Shown here: one piece after another, positions 1 through 55,093 of the stretch
Position numbering within the stretch: position 1 is the stretch's first letter
Layout: every line of letters starts with the position of its first letter
Notes under the pieces: generated by a model
What the model saw: the letters and a program-made list of their open reading frames with translations, nothing else
Database searches by the model: none
What the model was told of the DNA's origin: nothing
Made by a program: the position numbers and the translations under genes
Virus record (IMG/VR): IMGVR_UViG_3300015171_000006
Location: 1-55,093 of that record
Strand: one strand, 5' to 3'
Length of the DNA: 55,093 bases
DNA from: a virus

Positions 1-190
1 AACGTTCGCTGTTATGATTTTTTAAGTAGCAAATAATTATAAAGGCAGATGGAACTACTTAAAAAATCATAACAGCGAAGCGGAAATTCAAGCCTCACTT
101 ATAAGAAACTCTTATATTAAATTGGCGCTAACACAGCCATGAGTAAAAGCGTCAGGAAAATTGTAAAGACAGCCAACGCCACTTGTTTTT
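1..190 (+). repeat. Cassette repeat unit U0 (right half)
   Basis: Right half of the large palindromic repeat also seen at 52095-52500. Positions 5-29 and 55-79 are perfect 25-bp inverted arms (begin TTCGCTGTTATG) around a 25-nt spacer. Positions 1-109 are identical to 52323-52431. The tail carries the 'agcctcacttataagaaac' block at 91-109 and ends with GCCACTTGTTTTT just before the next gene. The left half of this copy is cut by the window start; the partner is probably the truncated unit at 54933-55093. Confidence 0.9.
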
Positions 191-211
191 ATCGGAATTT
201 GATATTTTATT

Positions 212-643
212 ATGGAGAAAAGCATTAGTGATAATCTTGCGAAGCATGTTGAATTATCAAACGACAAATTCCAAAAGTATTATAATTGGTTGCGTGGTTT
301 AATTGCTATAGCTGGAGGCTTGGTAGCTATTTTAATATCTTTAAAAAGCGGAATTTCAAAAAACCCAAATCAACACAAATTATTTATTTCTACTATAGGA
401 TTACTATCCGCAGGTATCCTTTTTGGATCAATCGTATTATATCAGGAAGTTTATATTGCAGGCAAATATCTTCAAGTGATGCACGATCACATAAAAGAAC
501 AATTTGAGGGCTACAAAGGAGACTTACTTGGCTGGATAGAAATCCCAAAAATTTATAAAATATGTTCTTACCTATGTATAATTTCTTTTGTTTTGTCGTT
601 AATATCTCTTGTAACTTATGCGGTATTTGCCGATTTGCCATAG
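212..643 (+). CDS. Three-helix membrane protein, accessory cassette gene
   Basis: 143-residue protein with hydrophobic segments at about residues 27-44, 60-78 and 117-140, so probably three membrane helices. No enzyme motif is visible and I do not recognise the family. It is the first gene after repeat unit U0 and is on the plus strand, opposite to the phage structural genes. A TATTTTAT box ends 3 bases before the ATG, so the message may be leaderless. Small membrane proteins next to phage structural genes are often lysogenic-conversion or superinfection-exclusion genes, but that role is inference here. Confidence 0.75.
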   Translation: MEKSISDNLAKHVELSNDKFQKYYNWLRGLIAIAGGLVAILISLKSGISKNPNQHKLFISTIGLLSAGILFGSIVLYQEVYIAGKYLQVMHDHIKEQFEGYKGDLLGWIEIPKIYKICSYLCIISFVLSLISLVTYAVFADLP

Positions 644-730
644 TTTCTTTTAACAGTATAAAAAAATATTAGAAAAATTTAGAGGCATGATTGTTAATTT
701 ACAAACACAGCTTCATAAATCGCTTCAATA

Positions 731-985
731 ATGTACGTGTCTCTCCCTCTCCAATATTGGCAGCCTGCAGTCCTCCAAATCTTCAACAAGGGAAAGAAGT
801 TAAATTATGTAGTCCAGATCATGTTATACTGGTTTATTGGGACGTTAGTACTTTCTTTAGGGCTTAATGCGAAAGATATTATAAAATATTTTTTAGGGAG
901 AAATAAAGAGAAAGCCAAAACAACGACATCACAGCAATCCCTAAAAGGTCTTCAGAATCAATCCACGAAAGATACTTCCAAATAG
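731..985 (+). CDS. Small hypothetical protein with one membrane segment
   Basis: 84-residue reading frame with one hydrophobic stretch (about residues 25-47) followed by a lysine, serine and threonine rich tail. It lies 87 bases after the membrane protein at 212-643 and is followed by a hairpin at 1041-1092. No family recognised. The start codon is not well supported, and the N-terminal part could be translated by chance. The same direction and membrane character as its neighbour favour a real cassette gene. Confidence 0.45.
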   Translation: MYVSLPLQYWQPAVLQIFNKGKKLNYVVQIMLYWFIGTLVLSLGLNAKDIIKYFLGRNKEKAKTTTSQQSLKGLQNQSTKDTSK

Positions 986-1040
986 ATTTCAAAACATAAT
1001 TTTTCGCAGCTTTTACATTTTCAAATCAGTATCATGTTAT

Positions 1041-1092
1041 GTTGTTAGAAAATGACAAAGGCAGTCATTTTCGCTTCGCCTTTTAGAACAAC
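1041..1092. repeat. Bulged hairpin, attC-like topology
   Basis: Outer arms GTTGTT (1041-1046) and AACAAC (1087-1092) pair, then AAAGGC pairs with GCCTTT. The two arms leave unequal unpaired bases, and a nested AAAATGAC/GTCATTTT hairpin lies inside. Terminal GTT...AAC with asymmetric bulges resembles integron attC sites. The boxes do not match the GTTRRRY consensus, so this is only a topological likeness. It sits downstream of the plus-strand gene at 731-985. Confidence 0.4.
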
Positions 1093-1227
1093 AATTTTCC
1101 CGCCCCTTTTGCCCTCACTTTCCCGGCGCTTTGGGGTTGCCTTCTTGAAAACTTACAACCCCTGCTAACCAAAATAACATAAGAGCTAATTATAGGCTTT
1201 TTTCATAATCTGATTACTTTGTCCTTA

Positions 1228-1415
1228 TGAATTTTTATTAATTATTGCCAACGCTTCTTAAAAAAAAGATTCTTATATTTAATGTGTCGACAAGATAGGA
1301 AGCCGGTTGCCAGTAGATTAATCTAATACCGCAACCACTTCCGATAAGCCGCAAGCATCCAGTTTGCGGTTTCTTTTTTCTATAATGCCTTAAGAAAATA
1401 ATTAATAAAAATTCA
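1228..1415. repeat. 19-bp inverted repeat enclosing a structured element
   Basis: A perfect 19-bp inverted repeat (1228-1246 and 1397-1415, core ttttattaatt) encloses about 150 bp with two further stem-loops. The first pairs GGAAG..GGTTGC (1298-1310) with GCAACC.CTTCC (1331-1342) and holds a 12-bp palindrome at 1314-1325. The second is the terminator at 1349-1379. There is no tRNA fold and no convincing gene. It could be a small structured RNA or a tiny non-autonomous element. It lies between the left accessory island and the end of the head operon. Confidence 0.5.
1349..1379 (+). terminator. Intrinsic terminator
   Basis: CCGCAA (1349-1354) pairs with TTGCGG (1364-1369) and is followed by a T-rich run to 1379. 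It would end plus-strand transcription coming from the accessory genes at 212-985, or a short structured transcript starting near 1280. Confidence 0.65.
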
Positions 1416-1437
1416 AAGAACAAGAACGGCCTGCTAA

Positions 1438-1486
1438 GTTGCGATCTTTTAAATAATCTTTTTTTAATTGCAGAAAAGATCGCAAC
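1438..1486. repeat. 13-bp palindromic hairpin downstream of head operon
   Basis: GTTGCGATCTTTT at 1438-1450 is perfectly complementary to 1474-1486, with a 23-nt A/T-rich spacer. The layout (long perfect arms, ~25-nt spacer) matches the palindrome in the cassette repeats but the sequence differs. It lies 20 bases past the stop of the gp10-like gene. No T-run follows on the minus strand, so it is not an obvious intrinsic terminator. Confidence 0.6.
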
Positions 1487-1505
1487 GCTTATGCTAAGGT
1501 AATAA

Positions 1506-2027
1506 TTATTTTAATGATTGCTTTAATTCTTCAAAATTCTTTTCTACTGCAGGCACAAAAAAAGGATGAGGCTTAATACCGTTTCTTAAAATACTTCTCG
1601 CTATTAAATAAGCAGCCCCATTACCTTCAATTCCTTTTCGTTTCACCCATCCCATTATTCTCAAAATAAAATCATCAAAATTTCCGCCTGAGCCACCTTT
1701 AAATTTTGCCGCATATTCTTGCCACGTTGCGGGTAATGTGCTTACGTAAGCTTCGGCAAATCTTCGTGTTCCAAACTCAATATAAGCGGCATAATTAGCG
1801 GCCACAACTATTTTAGTTTTTACTTTTACATCACCGGTATTTGCCGGCTCAAATGAGATGGCGTTTCTTAAAAAACCTTCATCAACAGGGGCATTTACTT
1901 TTGCCTGGTTAACTGTTTTAATAGCAAAATTATTCAGCTTATCAGCCATGATTTTATTTATGTCCTGCTTTGCTTTGCTGAATTTTGCCTCTACGCCTTT
2001 TGTATCTATATTTAAAGTAAGCCCCAT
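1506..2027 (-). CDS. HK97 gp10-like head-tail/tail component
   Basis: About 173 residues. It resembles the HK97-gp10 family of small neck proteins: a helical N-terminus, then the block 'VNAPVDEGFLRNAISFEP' and 'AAYIEFGTRRF', which are typical of that family. The start chosen at 2027 follows the upstream stop codon (2029-2031) by one base. A longer frame to 2081 would overlap the joining protein by 53 bases. In tailed phages this gene lies between the head-tail joining protein and the tail terminator. Here the next expected gene is at the far right end of the window (51273-51707), which points to circular permutation. Confidence 0.8.
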   Translation of the reverse strand: MGLTLNIDTKGVEAKFSKAKQDINKIMADKLNNFAIKTVNQAKVNAPVDEGFLRNAISFEPANTGDVKVKTKIVVAANYAAYIEFGTRRFAEAYVSTLPATWQEYAAKFKGGSGGNFDDFILRIMGWVKRKGIEGNGAAYLIARSILRNGIKPHPFFVPAVEKNFEELKQSLK

Positions 2028-10061: not shown

Positions 10062-11546
10062 CTAATTACCATTCGGAGTTGCAACAGGCAAGGGCGGCAT
10101 ATTTTCAAAATCATCCAATGGCGTATATCCTGTAGGTATCCATGGCAAATCAAATTTAGGATCATCATATCGCTCCCAATCCATCATCTCACGTTTTTCA
10201 TTTGGCGTTAAATGCCACATTATAGCCAGCGATGCAGCCTTCCTTTCCAAATCCTGATGCAGCTCCGATATACCGCTTATATCAGCATCTATGTATCTTG
10301 ATTTTCCGTCTCCCTTCACTCTTACCGGCTCACCGTCTTGCCCTGTAATTAAAACGCCATCTTTAAAGTCAGGCAATAAATGTTTAACCAATGCATCTCT
10401 TACCCTGAAAATATTCGGCAAAATAGTATTGGTATAAAGCCGTTTGGTATGTGTAAGCACGTTACTTTCCGTGCTTGCGCTGTCGCTGTTAAATAAAATA
10501 TCACTTACGCCCCACACATTGCACAGCTTTTTAAAATCCACATTGCCAAGCTCCAGCACTCCCAAATCTTTAAGGTGGCTACCAAGCTGTATAGCACCCA
10601 TTTCACCATTTGCAAAAAAAGGAGCGCCGGCATTATCAGGGTTACTTATAAAGCGGTGAAAATTTTGTTTTCGCTTTCCAATTATATCAACTCTTTCTTC
10701 ATCTACACCCAGCCCTTTTTCGTAAACAATAGTTTCCACACCGCCGTTCTGCAATCTTGCCACAGAAGTATTCATATTACTATCCAGCCTGGTAAGCCTT
10801 TTTTGAAGAACTTTTAAAGGAGAAAGCCCGCGAAGCTCGCTGCCCATTATATTCATTTCCGGGTTAAAATATTTAATATGAATAACATCTTCAGCAGGTA
10901 TATTTTCCATAATTATCTTGCCTTCATATCTATAATCATAGGCAACAATGGTTCTGGGTAAATCATTGCTTATTTTTAAAATAACACCTTGCGGATATAG
11001 TAAATGCAACTGTATAGGCAAGCCAATGTTTACGCCATCTTCCGGCCTTTCTTTTAAAATAAAAGCTTCGCCATGCAAAAAAAGATTTGAATAAACACCT
11101 TCAAAAAATTCATACTTACTCATATCCTGGTGCGGATTTTCTATAAGAGCAGCCACCGGATCATCTTCCGGCAAATCTGTTAATGCTTTTGTTTGAAGTG
11201 ATTTGTATTTTATAACATTGTTATAACCCTTAACCTCTTTTTTCAGGTTCGTAAAAGCTTTTTTATCTGGAGTAGATAGATAACCGTAAAGAGGAACCAG
11301 CGCCGCAGTAGTTGCCAGCAGGCGAATGATGGAATAAATATCATCTGTGTTTAAATACCTGTCATTGGCTGTTTTAATACTCCATGCGGGGTAAATAGCT
11401 ATGTTACTATTTAAATTGGCGGCAATGTTAGCCATTGCAATATTTTCAAACCCGGTAGTGGCTGCAGCAAATCTTTTTAATTCCGTTACTTCCTGCGATA
11501 GCTGCTTAATAGCCTTATCCTTTTTGCCAAAATCAAATAAACCCAT
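10062..11546 (-). CDS. Portal protein, HK97 family
   Basis: 494 residues. Features of the HK97/SPP1-type portal: 'SIIRLLATTAALVPLYGY' near the start, 'FEGVYSNLFLHGEAFILKE' and 'PAEDVIHIKYFNPE' in the wing, and a helical stem with 'VLTHTKRLYTNTILPNIFRVRDAL'. It forms the dodecameric vertex through which DNA is packaged. Terminase would normally lie just upstream; here the 11.6-13.3 kb accessory island separates them. Confidence 0.92.
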   Translation of the reverse strand: MGLFDFGKKDKAIKQLSQEVTELKRFAAATTGFENIAMANIAANLNSNIAIYPAWSIKTANDRYLNTDDIYSIIRLLATTAALVPLYGYLSTPDKKAFTNLKKEVKGYNNVIKYKSLQTKALTDLPEDDPVAALIENPHQDMSKYEFFEGVYSNLFLHGEAFILKERPEDGVNIGLPIQLHLLYPQGVILKISNDLPRTIVAYDYRYEGKIIMENIPAEDVIHIKYFNPEMNIMGSELRGLSPLKVLQKRLTRLDSNMNTSVARLQNGGVETIVYEKGLGVDEERVDIIGKRKQNFHRFISNPDNAGAPFFANGEMGAIQLGSHLKDLGVLELGNVDFKKLCNVWGVSDILFNSDSASTESNVLTHTKRLYTNTILPNIFRVRDALVKHLLPDFKDGVLITGQDGEPVRVKGDGKSRYIDADISGISELHQDLERKAASLAIMWHLTPNEKREMMDWERYDDPKFDLPWIPTGYTPLDDFENMPPLPVATPNGN

Positions 11547-11641
11547 TTCAAGATTTTAGCTAAAGATAAATTTAAGCAAATAGCTGTATTACAGCATTAG
11601 TATAAAGTTTAATCAACAATTCTTACATTTGTGATGCAGGC

Positions 11642-11935
11642 TGATTTTTTAAGTAGTTCCATCTGCCTTTATAATTATTTGCTACTTAAAAAATCATAAC
11701 AGCGAACGTTCTTTATTTATCAGAGTATGAGAGCCTTGATTATAAGATAATATTATGTTACTCAGGTTAGCCGTTTAGCCGCAATTCAATTTTATATTTT
11801 TGCGTAAGCTTTTAAAATTGAGATTGCACGCTGGCTGCTGTAGCGTTGAAGGCTGGCTTAAAAAGTAAAATAAAAAATGTCTTTGAGAGCGAAGCAAGAT
11901 TGCTGGTTTTTGAGCAATCTTTCAATATCATACGT
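11642..11935 (-). repeat. Cassette repeat unit U1 (left part, minus orientation)
   Basis: Reverse-complement copy of the unit at 52095-52500. Read on the minus strand it holds the start block with the GATTGCT/AGCAATC hairpin, the TTTTTTATTTTACTTTTT box, a diverged 90-bp block, then about 72 bases matching 52255-52326 and the palindrome (full arm at 11682-11706). The second arm stops after 15 bases at 11642, where phage sequence leading to portal begins. It closes the cassette holding the genes at 12039-12972. With the terminator at 11960-11990 it fills the 490-bp gene-free stretch 11547-12038. Confidence 0.9.
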
Positions 11936-11959
11936 GGGTAAAAAACCCTTACCTTTATA

Positions 11960-11990
11960 AAAATAAAAAACCCATTACGCCAATAATGGG
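11960..11990 (-). terminator. Intrinsic terminator at the cassette end
   Basis: On the minus strand CCCATTA pairs with TAATGGG (plus positions 11984-11990 and 11971-11977) around a 6-nt loop, followed by TTTTTTATTTTT. It would stop minus-strand transcripts from 12972-12223 just before repeat U1. Confidence 0.8.
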
Positions 11991-12038
11991 GGATTGCACA
12001 TACTATCAATATGAACATATCAAAGTTAATACTTTTTT

Positions 12039-12254
12039 ATGTTCAAATATTTTATTGTATTTACTTCTCTTATGTTTATTTTATATTCTTGCGAACACAA
12101 GAAAATACATCATCAGTCCATTTTAAAGCCTGACCCCTATATTACCAAGATGTACTTTCAGATGGATAGTTTAATAAAATCTGATGCAAAAAGCGGCACG
12201 TATGTAATAGAAGGAGACACTATTACTTTTTTAAAGTATCAATTGGGTGACTAA
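12039..12254 (+). CDS. Small lipoprotein, accessory cassette gene
   Basis: 71 residues with a signal peptide and lipobox ending in 'FILYSCEHKK' (Cys at about residue 18), so probably a lipoprotein. The rest is polar with 'GTYVIEGDTITF'. It runs against the neighbouring 249-residue gene and their 3' ends overlap by 32 bases. TACTTTTT lies just before the ATG, so the message may be leaderless. Function unknown. Confidence 0.6.
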   Translation: MFKYFIVFTSLMFILYSCEHKKIHHQSILKPDPYITKMYFQMDSLIKSDAKSGTYVIEGDTITFLKYQLGD

Positions 12255-12972
12255 GCGGCAAAAGACTTATCCCTAATTCTGGCAACTCCGTTCCACTTAC
12301 GACTAAGTTCATACTAAAGTGAAATGTGTCTTTGTATTCTTTACCGTTTAAATCAAGACAATTTATTGTAAAAAGAGTTTTATTTGTAATTAAATCCGGT
12401 ACTACATAATAAGGGAAACTAAAACTTGCTGTACAAGCAATTGGTTCTAATGGATTCAATCTATATATTTTCTCCATATCAATAAGATTTGAATAACTGG
12501 CTTTAACGTTTATTGCTGTTGTATCCATATTCGGGGGAAGCAAAGAGGCTTTGCCACTCACTATTCCATATTTGGGCGTTTCTACAGTTAAGCCGTATGG
12601 GCCATTAATAAATAATGGCTTCTCTCCATTATTTTCTAAGATTCCTGAAATGATTACAACTTGGCCACTTTGCTTTTTTATTGGGTCTCTATATTGCCCT
12701 ACATACATTGCTCTTGGATGGTATTTAAAAGAAGGTCTGTCTGTAAAATATGACACGACTTTGAATATTCCTGGAATACCACCTATAGCGCCGATTAATA
12801 AGATTATGAGTGAAGAATAAATATATGAAGGCTTTTGGGAAATTTCCTTAATAGATAACTTTCTATCCCTTATGTTTTTAGGTTTTACAACATTTTTTTC
12901 ACTTATAGGAAGCTTTGGTTGCGGGAGAGGAAATTTTGGCTTTTGCTTTTTTGTAAATTTTGGCTTGCCCAT
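12223..12972 (-). CDS. Membrane-anchored hypothetical protein, accessory cassette gene
   Basis: 249 residues: a Lys/Pro-rich N-terminus (about 1-50), one membrane helix at about 53-75, and a C-terminal part likely outside the cytoplasm and rich in beta strand. No family recognised. The start codon lies in 'TTAGCGAATGG', which also precedes the cassette gene at 54152. It lies between terminase and portal but inside the repeat-bounded island, so it is an accessory gene and not a structural one. Confidence 0.7.
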   Translation of the reverse strand: MGKPKFTKKQKPKFPLPQPKLPISEKNVVKPKNIRDRKLSIKEISQKPSYIYSSLIILLIGAIGGIPGIFKVVSYFTDRPSFKYHPRAMYVGQYRDPIKKQSGQVVIISGILENNGEKPLFINGPYGLTVETPKYGIVSGKASLLPPNMDTTAINVKASYSNLIDMEKIYRLNPLEPIACTASFSFPYYVVPDLITNKTLFTINCLDLNGKEYKDTFHFSMNLVVSGTELPELGISLLPLSHPIDTLKK

Positions 12973-13009
12973 TCGCTAAAATAAACATTCTTCGAAACAA
13001 ACCTCAATC

Positions 13010-13117
13010 AAAAACCAGTGGCGCTGGCTTTTTTATTTTACTTTTTCAGAGGCTGTGCAGTGCCTGTTTAACATAATGGTTTCTTATAAGTGAGGCTTGA
13101 ATTTCCGCTTCGCTGTT
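13010..13117 (-). repeat. Cassette repeat unit U1' (right part, minus orientation)
   Basis: Matches the right half of the unit at 52395-52500: the 'aacagcgaagcgg' junction, the 'agcctcacttataagaaac' block, AAAAAGTAAAATAAAAAA, and the terminal GCCACTGGTTTTT. It opens the cassette that ends in U1. The palindromic core is absent; at 13117 the match stops where the 94-residue phage gene continues. The first half of this block is also the 3' end of that gene. Confidence 0.85.
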
Positions 13118-13330
13118 GGGCATTTGTGCGTCGGCTGAATTAAGTGAGGGGCGGTCCAACGTGAGGAATGGCTCGCCGTACAAATTAAACCCAAGATCAC
13201 ACAGTTTATTTAAGTGGAGGTAATACCATTTACCACTTCCATATAATTTGTACGAAAGCTCACACATTATCTTATGAAACCACCATTTTACTGGCTTTTT
13301 AAACTGCTTATTAACCTTGCTACAAGCCAT
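13046..13330 (-). CDS. Small hypothetical phage protein whose C-terminus is encoded by the repeat
   Basis: 94 residues. Residues 1-71 are unique, with 'KKPVKWWFHKIMCELSYKLY' at the front, basic and aromatic. The last ~23 residues ('NSEAEIQASLIRN' onward) are encoded by the repeat segment that recurs at 73-140 and 52395-52470. It begins 16 bases after the terminase stop and was probably part of the packaging operon. It may be the ancestral source of that repeat segment, or a gene whose end was replaced by it. Confidence 0.6.
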   Translation of the reverse strand: MACSKVNKQFKKPVKWWFHKIMCELSYKLYGSGKWYYLHLNKLCDLGFNLYGEPFLTLDRPSLNSADAQMPNSEAEIQASLIRNHYVKQALHSL

Positions 13331-13345
13331 ATATATATATTGGGT

Positions 13346-14884
13346 TTAATATTCTGCATCAGCATAAACTTTTTTAGGCACCAGCGTAAATATTTCACGC
13401 ATCATAAACATATCCATTAAATCAGGACTGTCACCATTTAACTTGGTTTTCATTTCATCTTTCTTTATAACCCGCAGCTTACCGTCACTATCAGGCTTTG
13501 CCCGCTTTATGGCTTTGCGCTCATATAAAAATCGTTGCCTCACAGTCATTTTAGTATCATACATCATATTTGCCACACGCTCATTAATTTTCATTTCACC
13601 ACGGTTAACTCTGTTACCGCTCCTGTAATAACATTGAGCCTTAAGGTGCTCATAATTTTCTGGCAATAACTTTCGTGTCTTGGGATCATATTTTGGGTTA
13701 GAATAATCTGGCAAAGCCGGGCTTCCATTATTAAACTCTTTGGCGCCAACAATATACCCGTCAATAAACTGGCCCACACCATCATTATCAAAAGCAATAT
13801 TGCTGTTTTGTGTTTTATGCTTTTTTGCCATATTCTCAATGCCGGCAATCACTTCATTACCCTTGCTCTTATCCATAATCAGCATATCATCCAGTTCAAA
13901 GCCGCTCCAATGCCCAACTATAAATTTATTACTTCCTTTCATAGCAATATCAGCCGTAATATAATTGCCATCATTTTTTACATCATACTTATTTTCAAAC
14001 ATGCCTATAAATTTATAATAATCATAAATATCAATGTCAGATAATATTACCTTCCAATTTCCTTCAAATAACTGAGCCTTGGTTTCTGCATCCTGCGCCA
14101 TCAGGTTTCCCAGGTACGAAGGGTTTACTTTTAAAAGCTCTTTATTATCATAAATACTACCTGATATAAAGGTTATAGACTTTACAAATTCCCTTGCATC
14201 TATGCCAGATTTTTGTACGGCATCTTCAATTAAATACCATCCTTTTTCAATCACCTCCTCATAACTATCCCCCCAAATATAATTCTCGCCATCTACAAGC
14301 ATATATCTTATCACGCCATCCCTTTCCGGTATAGGGAAGCCGGTATCTGCATCAATCCACCAATTAATTAAATCATAAACCCAGCTTTCAGGGTCAGGGT
14401 TGCATGTTGCCCTGCAGTAAGGCCGAACGCCTGATACGGATCTGTTCCTGGTAAGCAGGTAAAAAAACATTTTTTTTGAAAAATGGGTCAGCTCATCAAA
14501 ACCTATAAATGGTATCTGAGCTCCCTGCCAGTCAAATATATTTTTCTCATACTCTAAGTGGGAAAATTTAAGCTTGCATCCCGATTTAAAATACCATTCT
14601 AAGGAGCTTTCCTTAGGAACGGCGCCAATGCCAGGGTAAATCGTCATGGAAGTATCCCACAATCCACCCTCATTTCTTATCTGTGGAGATGTACGCCTGA
14701 ATATAACACCGCCAAAAGCAGGGTTATGAACGTCACGCAGCGGATCAAGTAAAAGAGTGAATGTTTTACCTACGCCTGCAGCAGCGCCGCCAATTATTAT
14801 ATCAGCAGCATTACTAAGCGCCTTGGTTTGATAACCCGGCTGCGGCTGTATCGTTAGCGTAGGTTTCTTTATTAGCTCTGCCAT
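13346..14884 (-). CDS. terL: Terminase large subunit
   Basis: 512 residues. Walker A variant 'GGAAAGVGKT' at 32-41, Walker B 'IPFIGFDELTHF' near 125-135, coupling-type motif 'RATCNPDP', and a C-terminal nuclease half with 'YITADIAMKGS' and 'NIAFDNDGVGQ' as acidic metal sites. It translocates DNA into the prohead and cuts the concatemer. It overlaps the small subunit by 71 bases. Confidence 0.93.
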   Translation of the reverse strand: MAELIKKPTLTIQPQPGYQTKALSNAADIIIGGAAAGVGKTFTLLLDPLRDVHNPAFGGVIFRRTSPQIRNEGGLWDTSMTIYPGIGAVPKESSLEWYFKSGCKLKFSHLEYEKNIFDWQGAQIPFIGFDELTHFSKKMFFYLLTRNRSVSGVRPYCRATCNPDPESWVYDLINWWIDADTGFPIPERDGVIRYMLVDGENYIWGDSYEEVIEKGWYLIEDAVQKSGIDAREFVKSITFISGSIYDNKELLKVNPSYLGNLMAQDAETKAQLFEGNWKVILSDIDIYDYYKFIGMFENKYDVKNDGNYITADIAMKGSNKFIVGHWSGFELDDMLIMDKSKGNEVIAGIENMAKKHKTQNSNIAFDNDGVGQFIDGYIVGAKEFNNGSPALPDYSNPKYDPKTRKLLPENYEHLKAQCYYRSGNRVNRGEMKINERVANMMYDTKMTVRQRFLYERKAIKRAKPDSDGKLRVIKKDEMKTKLNGDSPDLMDMFMMREIFTLVPKKVYADAEY

Positions 14885-17932: not shown

Positions 17933-18217
17933 TTATTGATAAATTAAACCCGCTGCGTCTATAAATATTTCTGGTTCTTTTTCATAATATTCATCAGGCC
18001 TGCTTTCGGCTACTAAAAATATTTGCCACCTTTTTGCCTTACTTATTTTACTGATAAAAATTCCTTTCATATACTGCACATTTTCTTCAACTACTTTTTT
18101 TCTCCATTCAGTTCTTTCTTCCTCTGTAAGCTCGTTTTCATCCAGCCGCCGGAACAGATAATCTTCTATCTGCATCTCATTGTATAACGAGCCGTTTAAG
18201 TATAGCTGGAGCTTCAT
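17933..18217 (-). CDS. Hypothetical protein between recombinase and ATPase
   Basis: 94 residues, acidic N-terminus with 'YLFRRLDENELTEEERTEWR', then a beta-rich end. Overlaps the recombinase stop by 4 bases (ATGA), so it is co-translated with it. No family recognised. Confidence 0.6.
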   Translation of the reverse strand: MKLQLYLNGSLYNEMQIEDYLFRRLDENELTEEERTEWRKKVVEENVQYMKGIFISKISKAKRWQIFLVAESRPDEYYEKEPEIFIDAAGLIYQ

Positions 18218-25429: not shown

Positions 25430-26239
25430 TTAAAAGCCCATTTTTTCTTGATTGTTAACAAAGTCCATTGTTTGGCCGCCGGTTGTGTCAGTCATAACCG
25501 CCTCCTGAAAATCCATAGGTCTTGAGTTGCCATTTGCTTTTATTTCATCCTGCACCTGATCTGCAGCATCATCGTTTTCAATTGCGTTGATCATTTCCAC
25601 AGAAAGGATTCCCCAATGAGTTAGCATGTTTTTAAGCACAGTCTTTTTTGCCATTGCTGAAAACTCTTTTTGCCATGGGCCATAAGGCTGGCTATAAGAA
25701 GGGCTGTACTTACTTGCATGAGCCATAACTTTTTCTTTGGTCATGTAAAGTGTTTTTGAAAAACCGTTGTGCAATTCCATGTAAGCAAAATATCCTATCA
25801 CCTTATCACTTGTAGCCTGTCCGTTTACATCAAACTCACCGGTAAGTTTATTACGTGTGCGATATTCACCTTCATATACTTCATCGCAGTTAAGCGTTTT
25901 ATAATTACCTGTGCGCAAAGCCAATTGCACATACCCTTTATATCCAATCTGGAACTCTGGTTTTTGTTTGTATGCAATTACATAAGCAAAGCCAAGGTTC
26001 TTGTTAATTGGAAGCTTTAGCAGGGCTCCTTTAAGAGCTTCTTTTATTATTGACCCCGGGTTACATTGCTGCAGGTTGGTATCGCTTGTAAATAAATCAA
26101 TCAGCGAGGCAATGAATGATCCTGTATTCTCACCAAGGGCATTTTTAAACTGCGCCTGCACACTATCAGAATACATCATATTTTTTAGTGTGTCTACTTT
26201 TGATACGGCCACTTGCTGGCCGTTGTTATTTTGTTCCAT
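25430..26239 (-). CDS. recT: RecT single-strand annealing protein
   Basis: 269 residues. 'LKGALLKLPINKNLGFAYVI' and 'EFQIGYKGYVQLALRTGNY' are the RecT core, with 'DEVYEGEY' and 'GPWQKEFSAMAKKTVLKNML' further on. It anneals complementary single strands during recombination and replication. Neighbours are an SbcC-like ATPase and a metallo-beta-lactamase-fold protein, so this is a phage recombination block. Confidence 0.92.
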   Translation of the reverse strand: MEQNNNGQQVAVSKVDTLKNMMYSDSVQAQFKNALGENTGSFIASLIDLFTSDTNLQQCNPGSIIKEALKGALLKLPINKNLGFAYVIAYKQKPEFQIGYKGYVQLALRTGNYKTLNCDEVYEGEYRTRNKLTGEFDVNGQATSDKVIGYFAYMELHNGFSKTLYMTKEKVMAHASKYSPSYSQPYGPWQKEFSAMAKKTVLKNMLTHWGILSVEMINAIENDDAADQVQDEIKANGNSRPMDFQEAVMTDTTGGQTMDFVNNQEKMGF

Positions 26240-26269: not shown

Positions 26270-28255
26270 TTATGCTGCCTGCTCTATCCTTAATTGCTTA
26301 TCAGGCTTGGAAGCAATAAGGCTTATCAGCTGGCTTTCACTTTCCGGGATGATAAATACACTCTCCCTGTTATCAATAAAAATGGGTGCTGAAATATTAT
26401 GGTGCCTGCACAGGGTATTTATGATGTCAACGCCGGCCTGTATCTTGCTTGCAGTGTTGGCATCAGCATAAGGAACGCCGTTTATCAATGTTTCGCAACA
26501 CGGCTCCTGGCCACCATTTATTTTATCGCGGAACATTTTAAACTTTACAATGGTAAACATGCTGTTAACCCTGCTTTCCAGCATATCCATCTTGGCCTTT
26601 TCAAATTGCATGATAGAAAATTCAATTCCTTCCAGCCGGGCCAGCTCCTGCGCCATGCTGCTTTCCTGGGTATGTAATTCTGCAATGCGAGCTTCTATTT
26701 TTTCACGCTGTCCTTTTGATGATAGTTGTTGTTTTAAATCATCTATCCCATTTTGAATAGTTGATTTTTTAGCAAGCAAATCAGCATTATCATCTGCATT
26801 TATTGGAGCCTTAATTTCATCATTCAATGAAGCTATTTGCGCTTTAAGATTTTTAAGATTTTCATTAGCAGCAATGGCATTTTGAAAAGCCAGATCATCA
26901 TTTGCAGAAAGGTTTAAATTTTCTTCCTCAACAAAAGAAATTTTAAGTTTTGTTTCATTGATAGCGATCTGCAATGCTTCATCTTCGGCTTTTAATTTTT
27001 CAATAGATTGATCAATATAGGCAATGCTCTCATTTACTTTTTTACCCTCTGCAGTAACCGATGCAAGCCTGGTAGATTTGTCCTGATTAAAGTTGCTTTG
27101 CATCTGTGCTTTCTTTGCTTCCACATCAGTTGCTTCATACGGCCTTTTACATGCCGGGCACATAAATTCATTTTCTTTAAATTCAAGCTTTTCAGAATCA
27201 ATGGCTGTCCATTTGGTTCTCAACTCCTGCTGCTGGGTAAGCAATGATTTTTTGCGTGACTGATCATTTGAAACGGCAATGGCATTGCGTGAAGCTTCAT
27301 CCAGCTTATCTTTTAAAGTGCGCTTTAAGTTTAAAATTTTTTGCTCCCTTTCACGCTTATTATCCTGCACTTTATTGCGTTCTGCAAACTCAATATTATT
27401 AACCTCTGATGTAAGTGAATGCACCTGCCTTACCTTATCATTTACTGCCTGCTGCTTTTGCTGCAGGGCGAGTGTTTTATCATTAATAAGCGCTTCCACC
27501 TGCTGCAATCCTGCTTTTTCTGTTTCAAGCTGTGCTTCAATAGCAGCGTAGTTTACAAAATCAGGCAGGCTTCTTTTTGCTTCATCAATGCGGGAAGGGA
27601 GAAGATCCTTTTCATCACGAATCAGTTTCTTTTTAGCGGCAATCTCATTGCGGTATTCATACAAAGTTTTCTTTGCATTTAATGCAGTTATAAGGCTGGT
27701 AAAGTCTATACCGGTGATGGCATCAAATACCATTTTGTTGGTAATTTCACCGGCAAGCTTTTCCAGTACCGATCTTCTGTCCTGCCAGGCAAGGGTTGCA
27801 AAATAGCTTGTATTGGTAATAAGCTTAAATAGCCCTTCATCCAGTATGCTGGCTATTTTCTTTTTAAATTCAGTTTCATTAAGAGGTACATCATTCCAAA
27901 AGAAATCCTGCTTATGGCCGCTAAAGGTTTCTGTGGCCGTGCCTTTTTTAGTAGGCCAGTTTTCTTTGTAAGATCTTCTTATAGTTACTTCATCACCATT
28001 CACTTCAATTACAGCAGAAACCTCATGGCTCATTTTATGGAACGCCTGGTTATTGCTGTCCAGCGTTTTGATATTAAAATCGGTTCTGTCCGCAGAATTT
28101 TTACCAAACATCAGCCATAAAAAGGCATCCATAATGGTAGTTTTTCCGGTGCCGTTATCACCAAAAATATTAGTGATATTGCTGAAGATAATTGTGCTCT
28201 CTCTTGCTCCTTTGAAATTCAGGAGCTTCATCTGTTTTAAAATTATTTTATCCAT
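26270..28255 (-). CDS. SbcC/Rad50-like ATPase with zinc hook
   Basis: 661 residues. Walker A 'IFGDNGTGKTT' lies at 31-40, long coiled coils span about 180-590, and 'FMCPACKRPYEA' near residue 366 gives the CxxC zinc hook. It is shorter than bacterial SbcC, and the Walker B/signature end is compact and diverged: 'ISAPIFIDNRESV' has the Asp but the usual ABC signature is not clear. No SbcD nuclease partner is visible. It may handle DNA ends with the neighbouring metallo-beta-lactamase-fold protein. Confidence 0.82.
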   Translation of the reverse strand: MDKIILKQMKLLNFKGARESTIIFSNITNIFGDNGTGKTTIMDAFLWLMFGKNSADRTDFNIKTLDSNNQAFHKMSHEVSAVIEVNGDEVTIRRSYKENWPTKKGTATETFSGHKQDFFWNDVPLNETEFKKKIASILDEGLFKLITNTSYFATLAWQDRRSVLEKLAGEITNKMVFDAITGIDFTSLITALNAKKTLYEYRNEIAAKKKLIRDEKDLLPSRIDEAKRSLPDFVNYAAIEAQLETEKAGLQQVEALINDKTLALQQKQQAVNDKVRQVHSLTSEVNNIEFAERNKVQDNKREREQKILNLKRTLKDKLDEASRNAIAVSNDQSRKKSLLTQQQELRTKWTAIDSEKLEFKENEFMCPACKRPYEATDVEAKKAQMQSNFNQDKSTRLASVTAEGKKVNESIAYIDQSIEKLKAEDEALQIAINETKLKISFVEEENLNLSANDDLAFQNAIAANENLKNLKAQIASLNDEIKAPINADDNADLLAKKSTIQNGIDDLKQQLSSKGQREKIEARIAELHTQESSMAQELARLEGIEFSIMQFEKAKMDMLESRVNSMFTIVKFKMFRDKINGGQEPCCETLINGVPYADANTASKIQAGVDIINTLCRHHNISAPIFIDNRESVFIIPESESQLISLIASKPDKQLRIEQAA

Positions 28256-32607: not shown

Positions 32608-33678
32608 ATGGATAAATTAAACCTTACTCCTACTATTAATCTTCAGCGCCGGGACAAAGACGGCAAGTGTGCTGTGAGAATAAGATCCACCATAAAACGT
32701 AAGGTTACCTACTATCCAACCAGTATAAGTGTTTTTCCTGATCAATTCAAAAACAGGGAAATTGTAAAGCATCCCAATAAAATAATTTTCAACACGGCTA
32801 TCAGAAATAAGATGTATGAAATTGAGCGGGATTATCTTGAAGGAAAACTAACCGGCAAATCTAAAAATACTGATTTTTATGCCTTCTCTCAAAAAAAGAT
32901 AACACAGCAAAAAGGTAAAGATTCTGTGGGTACCTGGAAGCACAAAAAAAGTTATCTGAATAAACTGCAGGAGTTTAAACCAGTTCTGCATTTCTCAGAT
33001 GTTACTCCTTCCTTTATGCTTGATCTTGAAAATTATTGCAGGGCAAAAGGCAACAAGCCAACAACTGTATGGAGCACGGTAAAATTTATAAAAACAATGA
33101 TCAATGCTGCGCTCAATGATGAAGTGATAAGCAGCAACCCGCTGAAAGGTTATAAAGGAAAAGCTTATGTCAATCCTGAGAGACAATATTTAACTGATGA
33201 AGAAATTGAGAAGATTGAAAACTTTGCAGCAACTTCCAAAAATAAAACGCTTGTAAAGGTGTCTTATTGGTTCTTGTTTGGAGTTTTTAGCGGTTTGAGA
33301 TACGCGGATATTAAAAACTTTGATAAGAAAAAAATTATAGACGGCCGCATAATTTTAAGGACTGGCAAATCTGATATTGATGTAAGTATTAAAATTCATC
33401 CCAAACTAAAAAATGTTTTGGATAAAATAAGTCCGGATGTTTTTACCAATCAAAAGATGAATGATTACTTGAAGCATATTGCTATTGCTTGCGGTATTGA
33501 AAAGAATTTAACGATGCATATCGGTCGTCATACACATGCCGTTTATTTCCTCAATCATGGCGGCTCCATGGAAACACTTAGCAAACTGCTTGGCCACTCA
33601 AAAATAGGCACGACATTAATTTATGGCCGGATAACCAATCAGAGGATAGATAGTGAAGTGGACAGAGTTTGGAGTTAA
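32608..33678 (+). CDS. int: Phage integrase, tyrosine recombinase (Bacteroidota arm-binding type)
   Basis: 356 residues. Arm-binding beta domain (about 1-80, 'GKCAVRIRSTIKRKVTYYPT'), SAM-like core-binding domain (about 105-185), and catalytic domain with Arg231 ('SGLRYAD'), His304 and Arg307 ('HIGRHTH'), His330 ('LLGHSK') and Tyr339 ('LIYGRI'). It should integrate the phage into the host chromosome. It lies in the middle of the window, not at an end, so this is not a normal integrated prophage map. Confidence 0.9.
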   Translation: MDKLNLTPTINLQRRDKDGKCAVRIRSTIKRKVTYYPTSISVFPDQFKNREIVKHPNKIIFNTAIRNKMYEIERDYLEGKLTGKSKNTDFYAFSQKKITQQKGKDSVGTWKHKKSYLNKLQEFKPVLHFSDVTPSFMLDLENYCRAKGNKPTTVWSTVKFIKTMINAALNDEVISSNPLKGYKGKAYVNPERQYLTDEEIEKIENFAATSKNKTLVKVSYWFLFGVFSGLRYADIKNFDKKKIIDGRIILRTGKSDIDVSIKIHPKLKNVLDKISPDVFTNQKMNDYLKHIAIACGIEKNLTMHIGRHTHAVYFLNHGGSMETLSKLLGHSKIGTTLIYGRITNQRIDSEVDRVWS

Positions 33679-51272: not shown

Positions 51273-51707
51273 TTACCGGTGAAAGATGCTATGCTGAAAA
51301 GTTAGCACCCGATCAACATACTCCCTGGTATTATTAATGTTGTAATTCTGCGTAAAGTCGCCAGAAAGTTTTGTTGTTACACATTGAAGATTATCAGTTA
51401 ATTCAAGAGCAGTTTGTCTGTCAGGATAAATGGCCATTAATACAAGCCCGGCAATAGCATCAGCCGCCGCACCGTCATTATATTTCTCTTTAAATGTGTG
51501 AATCGTTACCCGCATAGATGTTGATGTATCTGCTTTGTATTGAGAAGAAGTATCATTATTAGTAATGCCGCCAAATACAATATAATTTTCATCCTCAATA
51601 TTATCAGGCGCTTTTTGATAAAAAACAGGGATAGGCACATCATTATATTTCAGCACCGATAAGGCAGAATTGTAAGCCACTCTTAAAGGATAATTTACAT
51701 CTCTCAT
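51273..51707 (-). CDS. Tail terminator / completion protein (DUF3168-like)
   Basis: 144 residues. 'VPIPVFYQKAPDNIEDENYI' and 'MRVTIHTFKEKYNDGAAADA' are typical of the small tail-completion proteins that cap the tube under the head. In other phages it follows gp10; here gp10 is at 1506-2027, at the other end of the window. A possible promoter (TTG, 20 bases, TACTTTTA at 51714-51721) lies just upstream. Confidence 0.75.
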   Translation of the reverse strand: MRDVNYPLRVAYNSALSVLKYNDVPIPVFYQKAPDNIEDENYIVFGGITNNDTSSQYKADTSTSMRVTIHTFKEKYNDGAAADAIAGLVLMAIYPDRQTALELTDNLQCVTTKLSGDFTQNYNINNTREYVDRVLTFQHSIFHR

Positions 51708-51919
51708 GTAAAGTAAAAGTAAAATCTTAATGTTTTTTGTTCAATAAGTTTATACTTAAAAACTATTTGGACCTTCCACTTAATTCAGCCCGGCCAACAG
51801 GCTATTCAAAAAAAACAAATATGCGACTAATTATATAACTTGCAAATTATAAGTACTTGCCCAAGCGCTTAATTTGAAGGTAAAAAAAGTCTTTTAGTAG
51901 ATAACAAAAATACTACTAA
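51708..51919. other. Intergenic stretch before the right accessory island
   Basis: No gene or hairpin of note. It starts with AGTAAAAGTAAAAT, which on the minus strand gives a weak -7 box for the tail operon. 'gcccggccaacaggct' and surrounding bases have no match to the cassette repeats, so the left edge of the island is not marked here. Confidence 0.4.
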
Positions 51920-52081
51920 ATGACAAAGTTTTGCCTAATTGGGCTAATATTTTTTTCTTGCAATATTTACCGAAAAATCCCATCTAAAATGTCAACTGTT
52001 CATCCCAAGCATGAATACAGAATTGGTGATACAATTATTATAAAAAATAAGAAATACTGTGTAATAGATGTGAGAATGTAA
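51920..52081 (+). CDS. 53-residue lipoprotein, accessory cassette gene
   Basis: ATG at 51920, TAA at 52079-52081. 'MTKFCLIGLIFFSCNIYRK' gives a short signal peptide and lipobox with Cys14; the rest has 'HEYRIGDTIIIKNKKY'. It ends 13 bases before repeat unit U2, as the other cassettes do before their repeat. Function unknown. Confidence 0.55.
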   Translation: MTKFCLIGLIFFSCNIYRKIPSKMSTVHPKHEYRIGDTIIIKNKKYCVIDVRM

Positions 52082-52094
52082 AGGGATTTTATCT

Positions 52095-52500
52095 ACGTAT
52101 GATATTGAAAGATTGCTCAAAAACCAGCAATCTTGCTTCGCTCTCAAAGACATTTTTTATTTTACTTTTTAAGCCAGCCGGCCAAGCTATGCAGCTCCTA
52201 TGAAAGCTGATTTTTTGCCGCATACGCTAAATTAAAAAATCACTTTCCAGCCAGTCTCTCGGCTAACCTGAGTAACATAATATTATCTTATAATCAAGGC
52301 TCTCATACTCTGATAAATAAAGAACGTTCGCTGTTATGATTTTTTAAGTAGCAAATAATTATAAAGGCAGATGGAACTACTTAAAAAATCATAACAGCGA
52401 AGCGGAAATTCAAGCCTCACTTATAAGAAACCATTATGTTAAACAGGCACTACACAGCCCCCAAAAAAGTAAAATAAAAAAGCCCGCGCCACTGGTTTTT
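52095..52500 (+). repeat. Complete cassette repeat unit U2
   Basis: The one complete copy. Nested inverted parts: TTTTTTATTTTACTTTTT (52153-52170) against 52464-52481 (18 bp perfect); 52273-52301 against 52413-52441 (29 nt, imperfect, TAACATAAT..CTTATAA..AGGCT); and the core arms 52327-52351 and 52377-52401 (25 bp perfect). It starts with acgtatgatattgaaag and a GATTGCT/AGCAATC hairpin and ends with GCCACTGGTTTTT. Genes lie right up to both edges. Confidence 0.93.
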
Positions 52501-52526
52501 ATTATGTAGAATGTATATTGTGGAGA

Positions 52527-53183
52527 ATGGGAATTTATAAACTATACTTGTTTCTTTTACTGCTTTCACCTATAGCCTCTTTTCCTCAAATAAAAAGAAT
52601 AAATAATATTAACGTGAGCCTTAAAAACCTTATATCAGAAACATCCAAAATTATGGATATTTTGCACATAAGTAAAAGGGTCAATTTAAAAAAAGATTCT
52701 CCATCCATAAACGTTCTTATAGATAGTACCGTCCTTCCATTTAATGCGTTTTTTGGCGGATTACATAAAAATGAAAGAGGTGTTATAACTCCATCAGGCA
52801 ACCATGCTTTAAGGTACTACAGATATCCTGCTATAAGGATGAATCCGCTTTTGCATTTAATAGTTTCAAAGAAGAAAGATACTACTGCTTTTGTCAGGCT
52901 TAAGGCAATATCAATTTTTGTTCACGAATTGGTTCATTATTTACAAGCTACTTGGTGGGTACACAACATTACTGTAACCTCGTATGATCAAATGGAATCT
53001 TATATATCTCAACCTGATGAATTTGAGGCTTATGGAGCAGAAGCATATTTCCTTTTAAAATATTACAATGAAAAATTATTAAGTAGTATAATGTACTCCA
53101 AAAACACACAAGAAACAAAAATGAAATTATTAATCAAATCATACTACTCAACCGTATATCCGTGGAGAGCTAAAATTTTTTAA
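52527..53183 (+). CDS. Secreted putative zinc metallopeptidase-like protein, cassette gene
   Basis: 218 residues from the ATG at 52527. Signal peptide 'MGIYKLYLFLLLLSPIAS'. 'SIFVHELVHYLQ' (His133-Glu134-His137) is an HExxH zinc motif, and Glu residues in 'QPDEFEAYGAEAY' could be the third ligand. It follows repeat U2 by 26 bases. Could act on host cell wall or proteins in the periplasm; no known family named. Confidence 0.7.
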   Translation: MGIYKLYLFLLLLSPIASFPQIKRINNINVSLKNLISETSKIMDILHISKRVNLKKDSPSINVLIDSTVLPFNAFFGGLHKNERGVITPSGNHALRYYRYPAIRMNPLLHLIVSKKKDTTAFVRLKAISIFVHELVHYLQATWWVHNITVTSYDQMESYISQPDEFEAYGAEAYFLLKYYNEKLLSSIMYSKNTQETKMKLLIKSYYSTVYPWRAKIF

Positions 53184-53535
53184 TCTTTACTTATTATACT
53201 ATCAGGATAAATACAAATATTATACATAACGGTATCCATTCTGTTTATATTAATGGTATCGCATTTTACTAAATGTAAAGGCCTATGACACTTCTTTGAA
53301 GTATTGCAGCTTGTTAAAGTAAAAAACACAAACCACCGGAGGGAAAAAAATTTTCATTTGTTCAATGAATTAATATGAGTAATTTTGTTACTCATTTAAA
53401 CCATTAAACCTTATGATATTAATATAATTGCAGGCTGCTAACGCAGTCTGTTTGTGTTTTATAAAGGTAAGAAAATAATTTTTTCCCATATCCTGTTTTT
53501 TTGTACTTTGTACAGGATTTCAAAACTAAACAATC
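53184..53535. other. 352-bp gap within the right accessory island
   Basis: No gene seen. Holds a perfect 8-bp hairpin ATGAGTAA (53375-53382) / TTACTCAT (53388-53395). TAACGCAGTCTGTTT near 53439-53453 resembles TAACGCAGTCAGTTT at 54899-54913, so it may be the remnant of a cassette boundary. TACTTTG just before 53513 could be the -7 box of the receiver gene. Confidence 0.4.
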
Positions 53536-53883
53536 ATGGCTAAGATTCTAATAGTTGATGATGAGCAAGACCTTTTATATGTTGTAAAAATCCTTTTAAC
53601 AAAAGAAGGTTTTGAAGTTATAACACATTCCACTTATTCAAATGTTGAAGAAATTGTACTAAGGCATTCTCCTGATTTAATTCTTTTGGATGGAGTGATT
53701 CACGGAGGTTCAGGTCGGGAAATTTGTAAAGAACTCAAAAAAAATTACCCTATACCAGTTGTATTGTTTTCAGCACATAGCCCAATTTCAAAAACCTATA
53801 AAGATTACGATGCAGACGGTTTTATTCAAAAGCCTTTTGATATACCGGACTTTATAAATACTATTAAGTCATACCTCAATTAA
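53536..53883 (+). CDS. Single-domain response-regulator receiver protein, cassette gene
   Basis: 115 residues, one receiver domain. Asp8-Asp9 ('ILIVDDEQD'), phospho-acceptor Asp52 ('LILLDGVIHGG'), Ser79 ('LFSAHS') and Lys99 ('FIQKPFD') are all present. No output domain. It could tap into a host phosphorelay. A terminator lies at 53952-53988. It is a different gene from the late-operon receiver at 36764-37246. Confidence 0.88.
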   Translation: MAKILIVDDEQDLLYVVKILLTKEGFEVITHSTYSNVEEIVLRHSPDLILLDGVIHGGSGREICKELKKNYPIPVVLFSAHSPISKTYKDYDADGFIQKPFDIPDFINTIKSYLN

Positions 53884-53951
53884 TAGTTTTAGGTTATCGG
53901 TTTAAGTTGTCTACCTTACTGCTGGTTTTCACAAGTATAGCGAATTTTTAA

Positions 53952-53988
53952 GGGAGGTGAATCTTTATTCTGCCTCCCAATTTTTTTT
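53952..53988 (+). terminator. Intrinsic terminator after the receiver gene
   Basis: GGGAGG (53952-53957) pairs with CCTCCC (53973-53978), then a run of eight Ts. The loop 'tgaatctttattctg' recurs almost unchanged in the second hairpin at 54093-54127, so the two may share an origin. Confidence 0.8.
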
Positions 53989-54092
53989 CACTCCCCCTTG
54001 GTATAATGCCTTGATTACTCACCATATTTTAATTTAATAGAATTATTTATTACCTTTCTTTTCTCATAGACCAGTTAGTTTGGTATATAACC

Positions 54093-54127
54093 GAGGGCGA
54101 ATTTTTATTCTGCCCTCCTGTTTTTAT
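54093..54127 (+). terminator. Second terminator-like hairpin
   Basis: GAGGGC (54093-54098) pairs with GCCCTC (54112-54117), then CTGTTTTTATG. It lies 24 bases before the next gene, which would then need its own promoter or a leaderless start. Confidence 0.65.
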
Positions 54128-54151
54128 GTTGTAAGATTGGTATATTAGCGA

Positions 54152-54811
54152 ATGGAAAGAAGGAAGTTTATAATTACCGTGAAGCAAAGGATTATTCTTG
54201 GACTTGTAGGCCTTTTCTTCACTTTTGCTATTGCATATATTAAAGGATGCTTTAATAAAACGGAAGCTAAAAAAATGCCAGTAGTCAATTCTCATATTAG
54301 TAATTATCAATCGAGCATCGGTCAACAATATAATGCGGGTAGAGATATAGTATTTTCTTCGCCAACCTCAAAGGTTGATACAAACACCACTAATCCATTG
54401 TTAACCAAAGTGCATACAGGGCAAAAAAACCAAAGAAAATTTAACAGCACTAAAAAAGATACTCTAATTGTTAACAATGGTTTTATAAATAATGGAGGAG
54501 TTGGCAATACGTATAACCAAACAATGAACCCTCCTTCGGAACAAAGGCACTTAAGCCCACTGGATAAAATTTACCTTGATACTGCCTTTTCTCCTAACTT
54601 AAAATTTTTCTTATTAGATGTTTACAATTTTGACAAGGAAAGTTTGAACTTATCAAATGAAATAAGTAATTACTTGGAATCAAAAAACTATACACCAATG
54701 ATGCGGCAACCAGAAAATATTCTTGGCGGAGTTCCGAAGGATAGCTTAGGCAAAATTAATATTATAAAATATGATGGGAGTTTTAAGATAATTATTTATC
54801 CATTGAAATAA
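54152..54811 (+). CDS. Membrane-anchored protein with Asn/Gly-rich repeats, cassette gene
   Basis: 219 residues: basic N-terminus and one membrane helix (about 12-30), then a low-complexity Asn/Gly/Ser/Thr region with 'SIGQQYNAGRDIVFSS' and 'NNGFINNGGVGNTYNQ', and a compact C-terminal part. The 'GVGNTYNQ' style appears in many accessory membrane proteins, but no family is certain. The start context TTAGCGAATGG matches the gene at 12972. Repeat U3 follows about 120 bases downstream. Confidence 0.65.
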   Translation: MERRKFIITVKQRIILGLVGLFFTFAIAYIKGCFNKTEAKKMPVVNSHISNYQSSIGQQYNAGRDIVFSSPTSKVDTNTTNPLLTKVHTGQKNQRKFNSTKKDTLIVNNGFINNGGVGNTYNQTMNPPSEQRHLSPLDKIYLDTAFSPNLKFFLLDVYNFDKESLNLSNEISNYLESKNYTPMMRQPENILGGVPKDSLGKINIIKYDGSFKIIIYPLK

Positions 54812-54932
54812 TTTTTACCCAAGGATTAATCCTATTACAATGCCAATTCTAATTGCTTTCACTATAAGTCTATAAGGGATACCAAATAACAATTTTAATT
54901 AACGCAGTCAGTTTTAGAACGGTAAATTTACC

Positions 54933-55093
54933 ACGTATGATATTGAAAGATTGCTCAAAAACCAGCAATCTTGCTTCGCTCTAAAAGACATTTTTTATTT
55001 TACTTTTTAAGCCAATCGGCCAAGCTATGCAGCTCCTATGAAAGCTGATTTTTTGCCGCATACGCTAAATTAAAAAATCACTTTCCAGCCAGT
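54933..55093 (+). repeat. Cassette repeat unit U3 (left half, runs off the window)
   Basis: Matches 52095-52255: start block, GATTGCT/AGCAATC hairpin, TTTTTTATTTTACTTTTT box and the following block. The last 77 bases (55017-55093) are identical to U2. The copy stops at the window end. Adding the 67 bases 52256-52322 of U2 would connect it to U0 at position 1. Confidence 0.92.

Follow-up and report, generated by a model that had tools for sequence, protein, structure and literature searches.

In the textbook account, bacteria stack foreign gene cassettes by means of integrons, which depend on an integrase of their own. The dif site is the place where chromosome copies are separated (chromosome-dimer resolution), and in the Xer system XerD cleaves at the boundary between the XerD arm and the centre. 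CTXphi carries two inverted dif-like sites ~90 bp apart whose folded stem, with a 7-nt centre in attP2, is the site used by host XerCD; Watson-Crick or wobble pairs of the centre decide the choice of target, and insertion at dif leaves a functional dif (PMC3089051). The BMV proviruses (Microviridae) of Bacteroidales are thought to integrate at dif-like sites via host Xer, and some of them have an extra dif-like sequence that was likened by the authors to CTXphi (PMC3091885). In Acinetobacter, pdif modules are Xer-site-bounded genes standing in rows on plasmids and chromosomes, with adjacent modules sharing single sites of alternating orientation (PMC12907356). Here, we analyze a nested palindrome in a virus genome, the 55,093-bp IMG/VR record IMGVR_UViG_3300015171_000006 (G000; the whole record is referred to as the window), which a preliminary description had taken for the border of accessory gene cassettes. 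We consider it probable that this palindrome serves as the recombination element in an integron-like cassette system located at the host dif, with host XerC/XerD as the most likely recombinase.

The palindrome is complete in one copy, element A (Table 1), and the coordinates and nested parts previously given for the copies all hold on re-measurement. The imperfect inverted block, described as 29 nt, is present and measures 35 nt with 77% complementarity; it corresponds to two inverted dif-like sites of the form TAACATAA-7 nt-TTATAA, termed class 1 and class 2, which lie 127 bp apart with a perfect 25-bp hairpin between them. The class-2 centre of element A is the same as in G009/L098. A copy described as split, at 11642 and 13010, lies where reported, but no insert has interrupted it; it reads second half, genes, first half, a circular permutation of the element. 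Within element B, positions 1-138 match repeat positions 229-365 at 95%, with further divergence to ~190, while on the minus strand 11642-11935 matches repeat positions 1-297 at 88% and 13010-13117 matches positions 299-406 at 95%. As single-stranded DNA, the element has a predicted folding energy of -69.7 kcal/mol versus -34 ± 3.6 for dinucleotide shuffles (z -9.8), and the predicted fold is one long nested hairpin plus a side hairpin, with the two dif-like sites pairing together. The repeat is real and not a product of chance. An Rfam search with the element returned nothing, and no such element was found in 78 terminase-related or 3 recombinase-related phages.

The same architecture, built from other sequence, is found in bacterial genomes. 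A strict pattern consisting of the inverted dif-like pair alone was scanned over ~85,000 prokaryote genomes, revealing 11 loci, all in Bacteroidota and nearly all in Chitinophagaceae/Chitinophagia, each with two inverted sites and a perfect hairpin with arms of 15-33 bp. The hairpin sequence varies across genomes and the architecture is constant, with paired sites at cassette borders 119-151 bp apart and the hairpin between them. A relaxed pattern matched 8 of 200 Chitinophagaceae genomes, and its sole match across 297 genomes of the phylum was the centre genome, itself a member of the Chitinophagaceae; the reversed control pattern had no match. Single dif-like sites arise randomly in Chitinophagaceae, but the inverted pair with a hairpin does not. 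Counts from exact patterns are too low: G335, G227, and others that differ by one or two bases were recovered through a single site only. In all, the site architecture is present in ~20 Chitinophagaceae genomes and is thus not confined to one genome.

The positions of these loci point to the host chromosome terminus, at dif, as the home of the system. In the majority of genomes with sufficient context, gyrA and a TPR gene immediately precede the element. The host XerD arm (ATTTAACATAA) is identical at 11/11 bases to the XerD arm of E. coli dif (GGTGCGCATAATGTATATTATGTTAAAT; PMC3025954). In the complete chromosomes G335 and G153, GC skew changes sign within ~150 kb of the locus (G335, 40 samples) or at the element itself (G153, 20 samples plus flanks). 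The dnaA gene was rejected as an origin marker because it was misleading, with the sites lying about one third of the chromosome away, and GC skew was used instead. As a dif in G057 lies in a different gene neighbourhood, preceded by a cassette end like that of the phage (76% identity to phage repeat positions 339-405, E 5.7e-7), the association is with dif and not with gyrA. Two further observations concern this region: in G003 the TPR/lipoprotein genes are separated from the dif element by ~9 kb of additional genes (L130 3155-11907), comprising RlpA-like, glycosyltransferase, and DUF4178/DUF350-like cluster genes, and DUF1737 proteins of 67-71 amino acids (aa) occur repeatedly beside dif, in G179 (two copies; L274 6394-8417 region) and G057 (L306).

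Close relatives were compared over the interval between the genes for a 384-aa lipoprotein and a 337-aa asparaginase-like protein. Empty sites, which the preliminary description had proposed looking for, are present there in G417 and G422 as single plain dif sites (ATTTAACATAA-TATTAA-TTATAAG and ATTTAACATAA-TGTTAA-TTATGAG, respectively). The interval holds one cassette each in G002, G005, and G441, with different genes (175, 165, and 154 aa, respectively), and at least two cassettes in G011. The sites thus border no single conserved gene set, with different genes at one chromosomal position in close relatives, and together with their recurrence and the empty sites this supports the earlier idea of a cassette system with an unusual recombination site. 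The phage copies resemble one another at 88-100%, and searches of phage, plasmid, and IMG/VR collections (distant BLAST with the exact repeat in phages and plasmids; core-hairpin and dif-pair patterns in IMG/VR) did not recover the exact sequence, as would suit a phage repeat that was duplicated locally or is an intergenic, terminator-like sequence, with no recombination function. This explanation is extremely improbable given that the same architecture lies at the chromosomal dif of many genomes, that empty and filled sites contradict it, and that the halves of the element stand at opposite ends of the cassette.

At the left junction of the cassettes, the flank and XerD arm are joined to the class-2 centre, and at the right junction the host dif centre follows an outer arm and XerD arm that belong to the cassette. 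The stretch shared by both junctions ends at the XerD cut position (15 genomes), with one or two chance matches past it in G075 and G179. It spans 12-39 nt in most genomes and 9-11 nt in G006, G036, G335, and G008, the shortest being the 9-nt TTAACATAA, such that the crossover is not placeable to a single nucleotide. In 9/9 cases the 5' outer arm of a cassette is a better pairing partner for its 3' outer arm than for the chromosomal left flank, with a narrow margin in two where the flank is itself cassette-like. As the 3' and 5' outer arms pair within the cassette, the circular cassette would have one palindrome that is split by integration. Rejoined elements fold at z -8 to -14, with pairing of both the XerD and the XerC arms in 14 of 14.

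The centres of the two site classes relate differently to the host dif. Across the 15 genomes with both an element and a terminal dif, the first four bases of the class-1 centre agree with those of the dif centre at 57 of 60 positions (TATT with TATT, TATA with TATA, TGT with TGT, and one G.T wobble). This is the pairing rule of the folded single-stranded attP of CTXphi. In the folded form, it is the class-1 strand that would come to pair with that of the host once strands have been exchanged. Recombination of double-stranded circles with dif at the class-2 site, in the manner of the Xer-site-bounded modules already known from Acinetobacter (PMC12907356), would yield the observed junctions equally well, with the palindromes put to another use such as transcription termination. 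However, duplex Xer strand swapping would need matching centres, and over their first three bases the class-2 and dif centres agree in 0/15 genomes, whereas the class-1 centres match dif although class 1 is not the junction site. The conserved pairing of both arms and the splitting of the outer arms further argue against duplex modules, and we regard this alternative as unlikely.

We propose instead that the cassette recombines as a folded single strand. The circular cassette would run in the order outer arm, class-2 site, inner hairpin, class-1 site, side hairpin, outer arm, and in single-stranded form its two inverted sites would pair into a single dif-like site whose 7-nt centre pairs poorly. 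XerD would cleave both the class-2 site and the host dif, in each after TAACATAA, strands would be exchanged, the class-1 centre would pair with the host strand and stabilize the exchange, and replication or repair would complete the insertion. The element would thereby be split, with most of it 5' of the gene, one outer arm and the XerD arm 3', and a complete dif kept at the far end, and repeated insertion would lead to arrays. A phage with ~four cassettes in its late region could shuttle them among hosts. The sequences themselves show the anatomy of the sites, their place at the terminus, empty and filled sites, varying genes at a given position, the split, covariation of the centres, and the potential to fold, whereas we infer XerCD as the catalyst, the single-stranded intermediate, present activity, and the phage as a vehicle. 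Relative to the preliminary description, this identifies the imperfect block as a dif site, the chromosome terminus as the home of the system, and Xer as the likely recombinase. The odds appear even for the broader proposal of integron-independent cassette arrays, in which cassettes bearing folded Xer sites are captured and stacked at the Chitinophagaceae dif by housekeeping XerCD and carried between cells by phage; such arrays would combine the reaction of CTXphi with the logic of integrons.

Several points weigh against this mechanism. Mobility and the single-strand step are deduced from junctions, folds, and covariation, and many of the carrier genomes are metagenome-assembled. The permutation test of class-1 and class-2 centres against dif centres (p = 1.3e-4) is weakened by the relatedness of the genomes, and in the predicted folds 1-5 of the 7 centre pairs form, making the bubble only partial. 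The bounds of phage cassette C fall in the inner hairpin arm (between CGCTGTT and GATTTTTTAAG), away from the XerD cut, a position for which standard integration gives no account. Lastly, XerA/IntI-like recombinases of ~330-400 aa are present in about half of the carrier genomes and could take part.

Indeed, such a dedicated tyrosine recombinase, of host or phage origin, could act on the folded element and dif in place of XerCD. The window has no transposase, as had been noted, but it encodes two tyrosine recombinases, of which the XerA/IntI-like protein (Table 1) has a 182-bit match with NF040815 and only two close relatives in IMG/VR (L087 and L088, 57-60%). However, the complete carriers G153 and G335 have only XerC/XerD-looking matches, the target is dif itself, and no XerA/IntI-like gene is linked to the arrays, making a dedicated enzyme quite improbable. 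The integron integrase model TIGR02249 had no match above its curated cut-off in 18 carrier genomes, and no recombinase gene was found in the chromosomal cassettes. As G153 and G335 show only XerC/XerD-like matches, host XerCD would be the simplest catalyst. Separately, the XerA/IntI-like recombinases L299-L304 are scattered among Chitinophagaceae, some with an extra N-terminal domain.

The measured cassettes are 681-1558 bp long, each with a single small gene or a few. Of 20 chromosomal cassette-region proteins, 16 matched nothing in Pfam at E 0.01; the remaining four matched a winged-helix family, DUF1737, DUF5503 (weakly), and V-ATPase C (probably a coiled coil). PADLOC gave nothing convincing on cassette proteins. 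Shared ancestry of the cassette proteins was considered and set aside, as there were weak similarities among a few and no more. Several unrelated-looking cassette proteins (L128, L246, L167, L275, and L277) have a weak common layout of winged helix and membrane segment.

G000 is a siphophage with ~four cassettes at two places. Its late and structural genes encode TerL, portal, Mu-F-like, capsid, neck, tail-terminator, and major-tail proteins, and its other genes include RecT, an SbcC-like nuclease, an integrase, and a second recombinase, which is Xer-like. Both contig ends fall within repeat copies and together form one further copy lacking 67 bp, suggesting a circularly permuted phage genome broken in the repeat. 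Neck1 lies at the left end of G000 and the tail terminator at the right end. In related phages (L027, L034, and L053) neck1 and the tail terminator are directly adjacent, as are TerL and portal; the map of G000 is therefore most likely circular, and 51707..55093 plus 1..1506, and 11546..13346, are most likely insertions into a compact late operon. The A/B array contains three cassettes of single polarity and begins with a degenerate element near 1175-1290. From the phage class-1 centre, TATT, one would expect a host whose dif is of the type most often encountered in these genomes. As for cassette C, our guess is that an extruded hairpin was cleaved and then recombined, with the phage SbcC-like nuclease and RecT involved. 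Its flanks form an imperfect direct repeat (11620-11650 and 13111-13135; CATTTGTGATGCAGGCTGA / CATTTGTGCG-TCGGCTGA). An imperfect sequence of ~45 bp, outside the element, is common to the 3' ends of both phage arrays (51760-51830, plus strand, and 13117-13170, minus strand; in cassette polarity GTTGG..CTGAATTAAGTG..GGTCC). This phage with long palindromes has genes for an SbcC-like 'palindrome-specific endonuclease' subunit and RecT side by side (26270-28255 and 25430-26239, both minus strand), and a two-domain glycosyltransferase gene (GT11 plus a GT2/GT7-like part) lies within its capsid-to-neck cluster (3774-5270, minus strand).

Table 1. Repeat elements, cassette genes, and recombinase genes of the window.
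Feature	Position	Strand	Remark
Element A, complete nested palindrome	52095-52500	-	Cassette polarity is the minus strand
Outer arm (AT box), class-1 side	52153-52170	.	Perfect 18-bp partner of 52464-52481
Outer arm, class-2 side	52464-52481	.	Perfect 18-bp partner of 52153-52170
Inverted imperfect block	52267-52301 / 52413-52447		35 nt, 77% complementary
Class-1 dif-like site	52273-52293	.	TAACATAA-TATTATC-TTATAA; centre of the kind matching host dif centres
Class-2 dif-like site	52421-52441	-	TAACATAA^TGGTTTC-TTATAA; ^, expected XerD cut
Inner hairpin	52327-52401	.	Perfect 25-bp arms 52327-52351/52377-52401, 25-nt spacer
Element B, first part	54933-55093	-	Repeat 1-161, 98%; cut by contig end
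Element B, second part	1-190	-	Repeat 229-406; diverged class-2 side
Cassette C, 5' part of element	11642-11935	+	Inner hairpin, class-1 site, side hairpin, outer arm
Cassette C, 3' part of element	13010-13117	+	Outer arm, class-2 site, start of inner hairpin arm
Degenerate element, neck1 end of array	1175-1290	-	Class-1-like 1175-1195, class-2-like ~1265-1285; by eye, weak
Cassette C gene	12223-12972	-	249 aa, one transmembrane segment, no Pfam match
Cassette C open reading frame	12039-12254	+	Small, lipoprotein-like, 71 aa
Cassette gene, open reading frame	51920-52081	+	Lipoprotein-like, 53 aa
Cassette gene	52518-53183	+	HExxH protein
Cassette gene	53536-53883	+	Response-regulator receiver domain (PF00072)
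Cassette gene	54152-54811	+	219 aa, one transmembrane segment
Cassette gene	212-643	+	143 aa, membrane protein
Cassette gene	731-985	+	84 aa, one transmembrane segment
Tyrosine recombinase	18214-19086	-	290 aa, XerA/IntI-like, 182 bits with NF040815
Second tyrosine recombinase	32608-33678

Among described systems, the closest kin of these arrays is a non-autonomous cassette form of the integrative mobile elements exploiting Xer (IMEX); they belong neither to the integron family, as there is no IntI and no attC, nor to the pdif modules. In the literature searched, which left preprints and many subscription papers outside it, we found no published description for Chitinophagaceae. Like CTXphi and other IMEX, the element has an inverted dif-like pair predicted to fold into one site whose centre would pair with the target dif, and it is integrated at the chromosomal dif, as indicated by the terminal dif, the GC-skew switch, and the empty sites. 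CTXphi, however, is a filamentous phage that has replication genes and exchanges strands on the XerC side, whereas the cassettes described here, from another phylum, lack replication genes, form arrays with an XerD-side junction, and add nested outer arms that are split at integration. In place of the phage or plasmid genes that give IMEX their autonomy, they hold a few small genes, mostly without a Pfam match. BMV proviruses are whole small viruses with capsid and Rep genes, and are neither cassettes nor arrays. The arrays resemble pdif modules in being gene modules in rows bounded by Xer sites, but each border is a close inverted pair around a hairpin and the place of integration is the chromosomal dif.

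With integrons they share a circular cassette form with one palindromic site split by insertion, small and mostly unknown genes, arrays of one polarity at one chromosomal place, and sites that are alike within a genome and different between genomes. Unlike integrons, they have no integrase above cut-off and no attI, the platform is dif, and the site comprises ~300-400 bp built of dif-like sites. We rejected the reading of the site as an attC, given that GTTRRRY-like strings occur inside the XerD arm only, that there is no IntI, and that the size is wrong; the attC architecture (R/L boxes, G^TTRRRY) was not found by inspection, no dedicated attC model having been run. These arrays, which integron tools based on IntI or attC are not expected to detect, open up a set of unknown small genes to study, and phages may be a route by which such genes spread. 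The system would reach an integron-like outcome without a dedicated enzyme, at the site where the cell separates its chromosomes. It makes the evolution of single-strand cassette recombination from Xer a testable question, and such a system could resemble the stage from which integrons arose.
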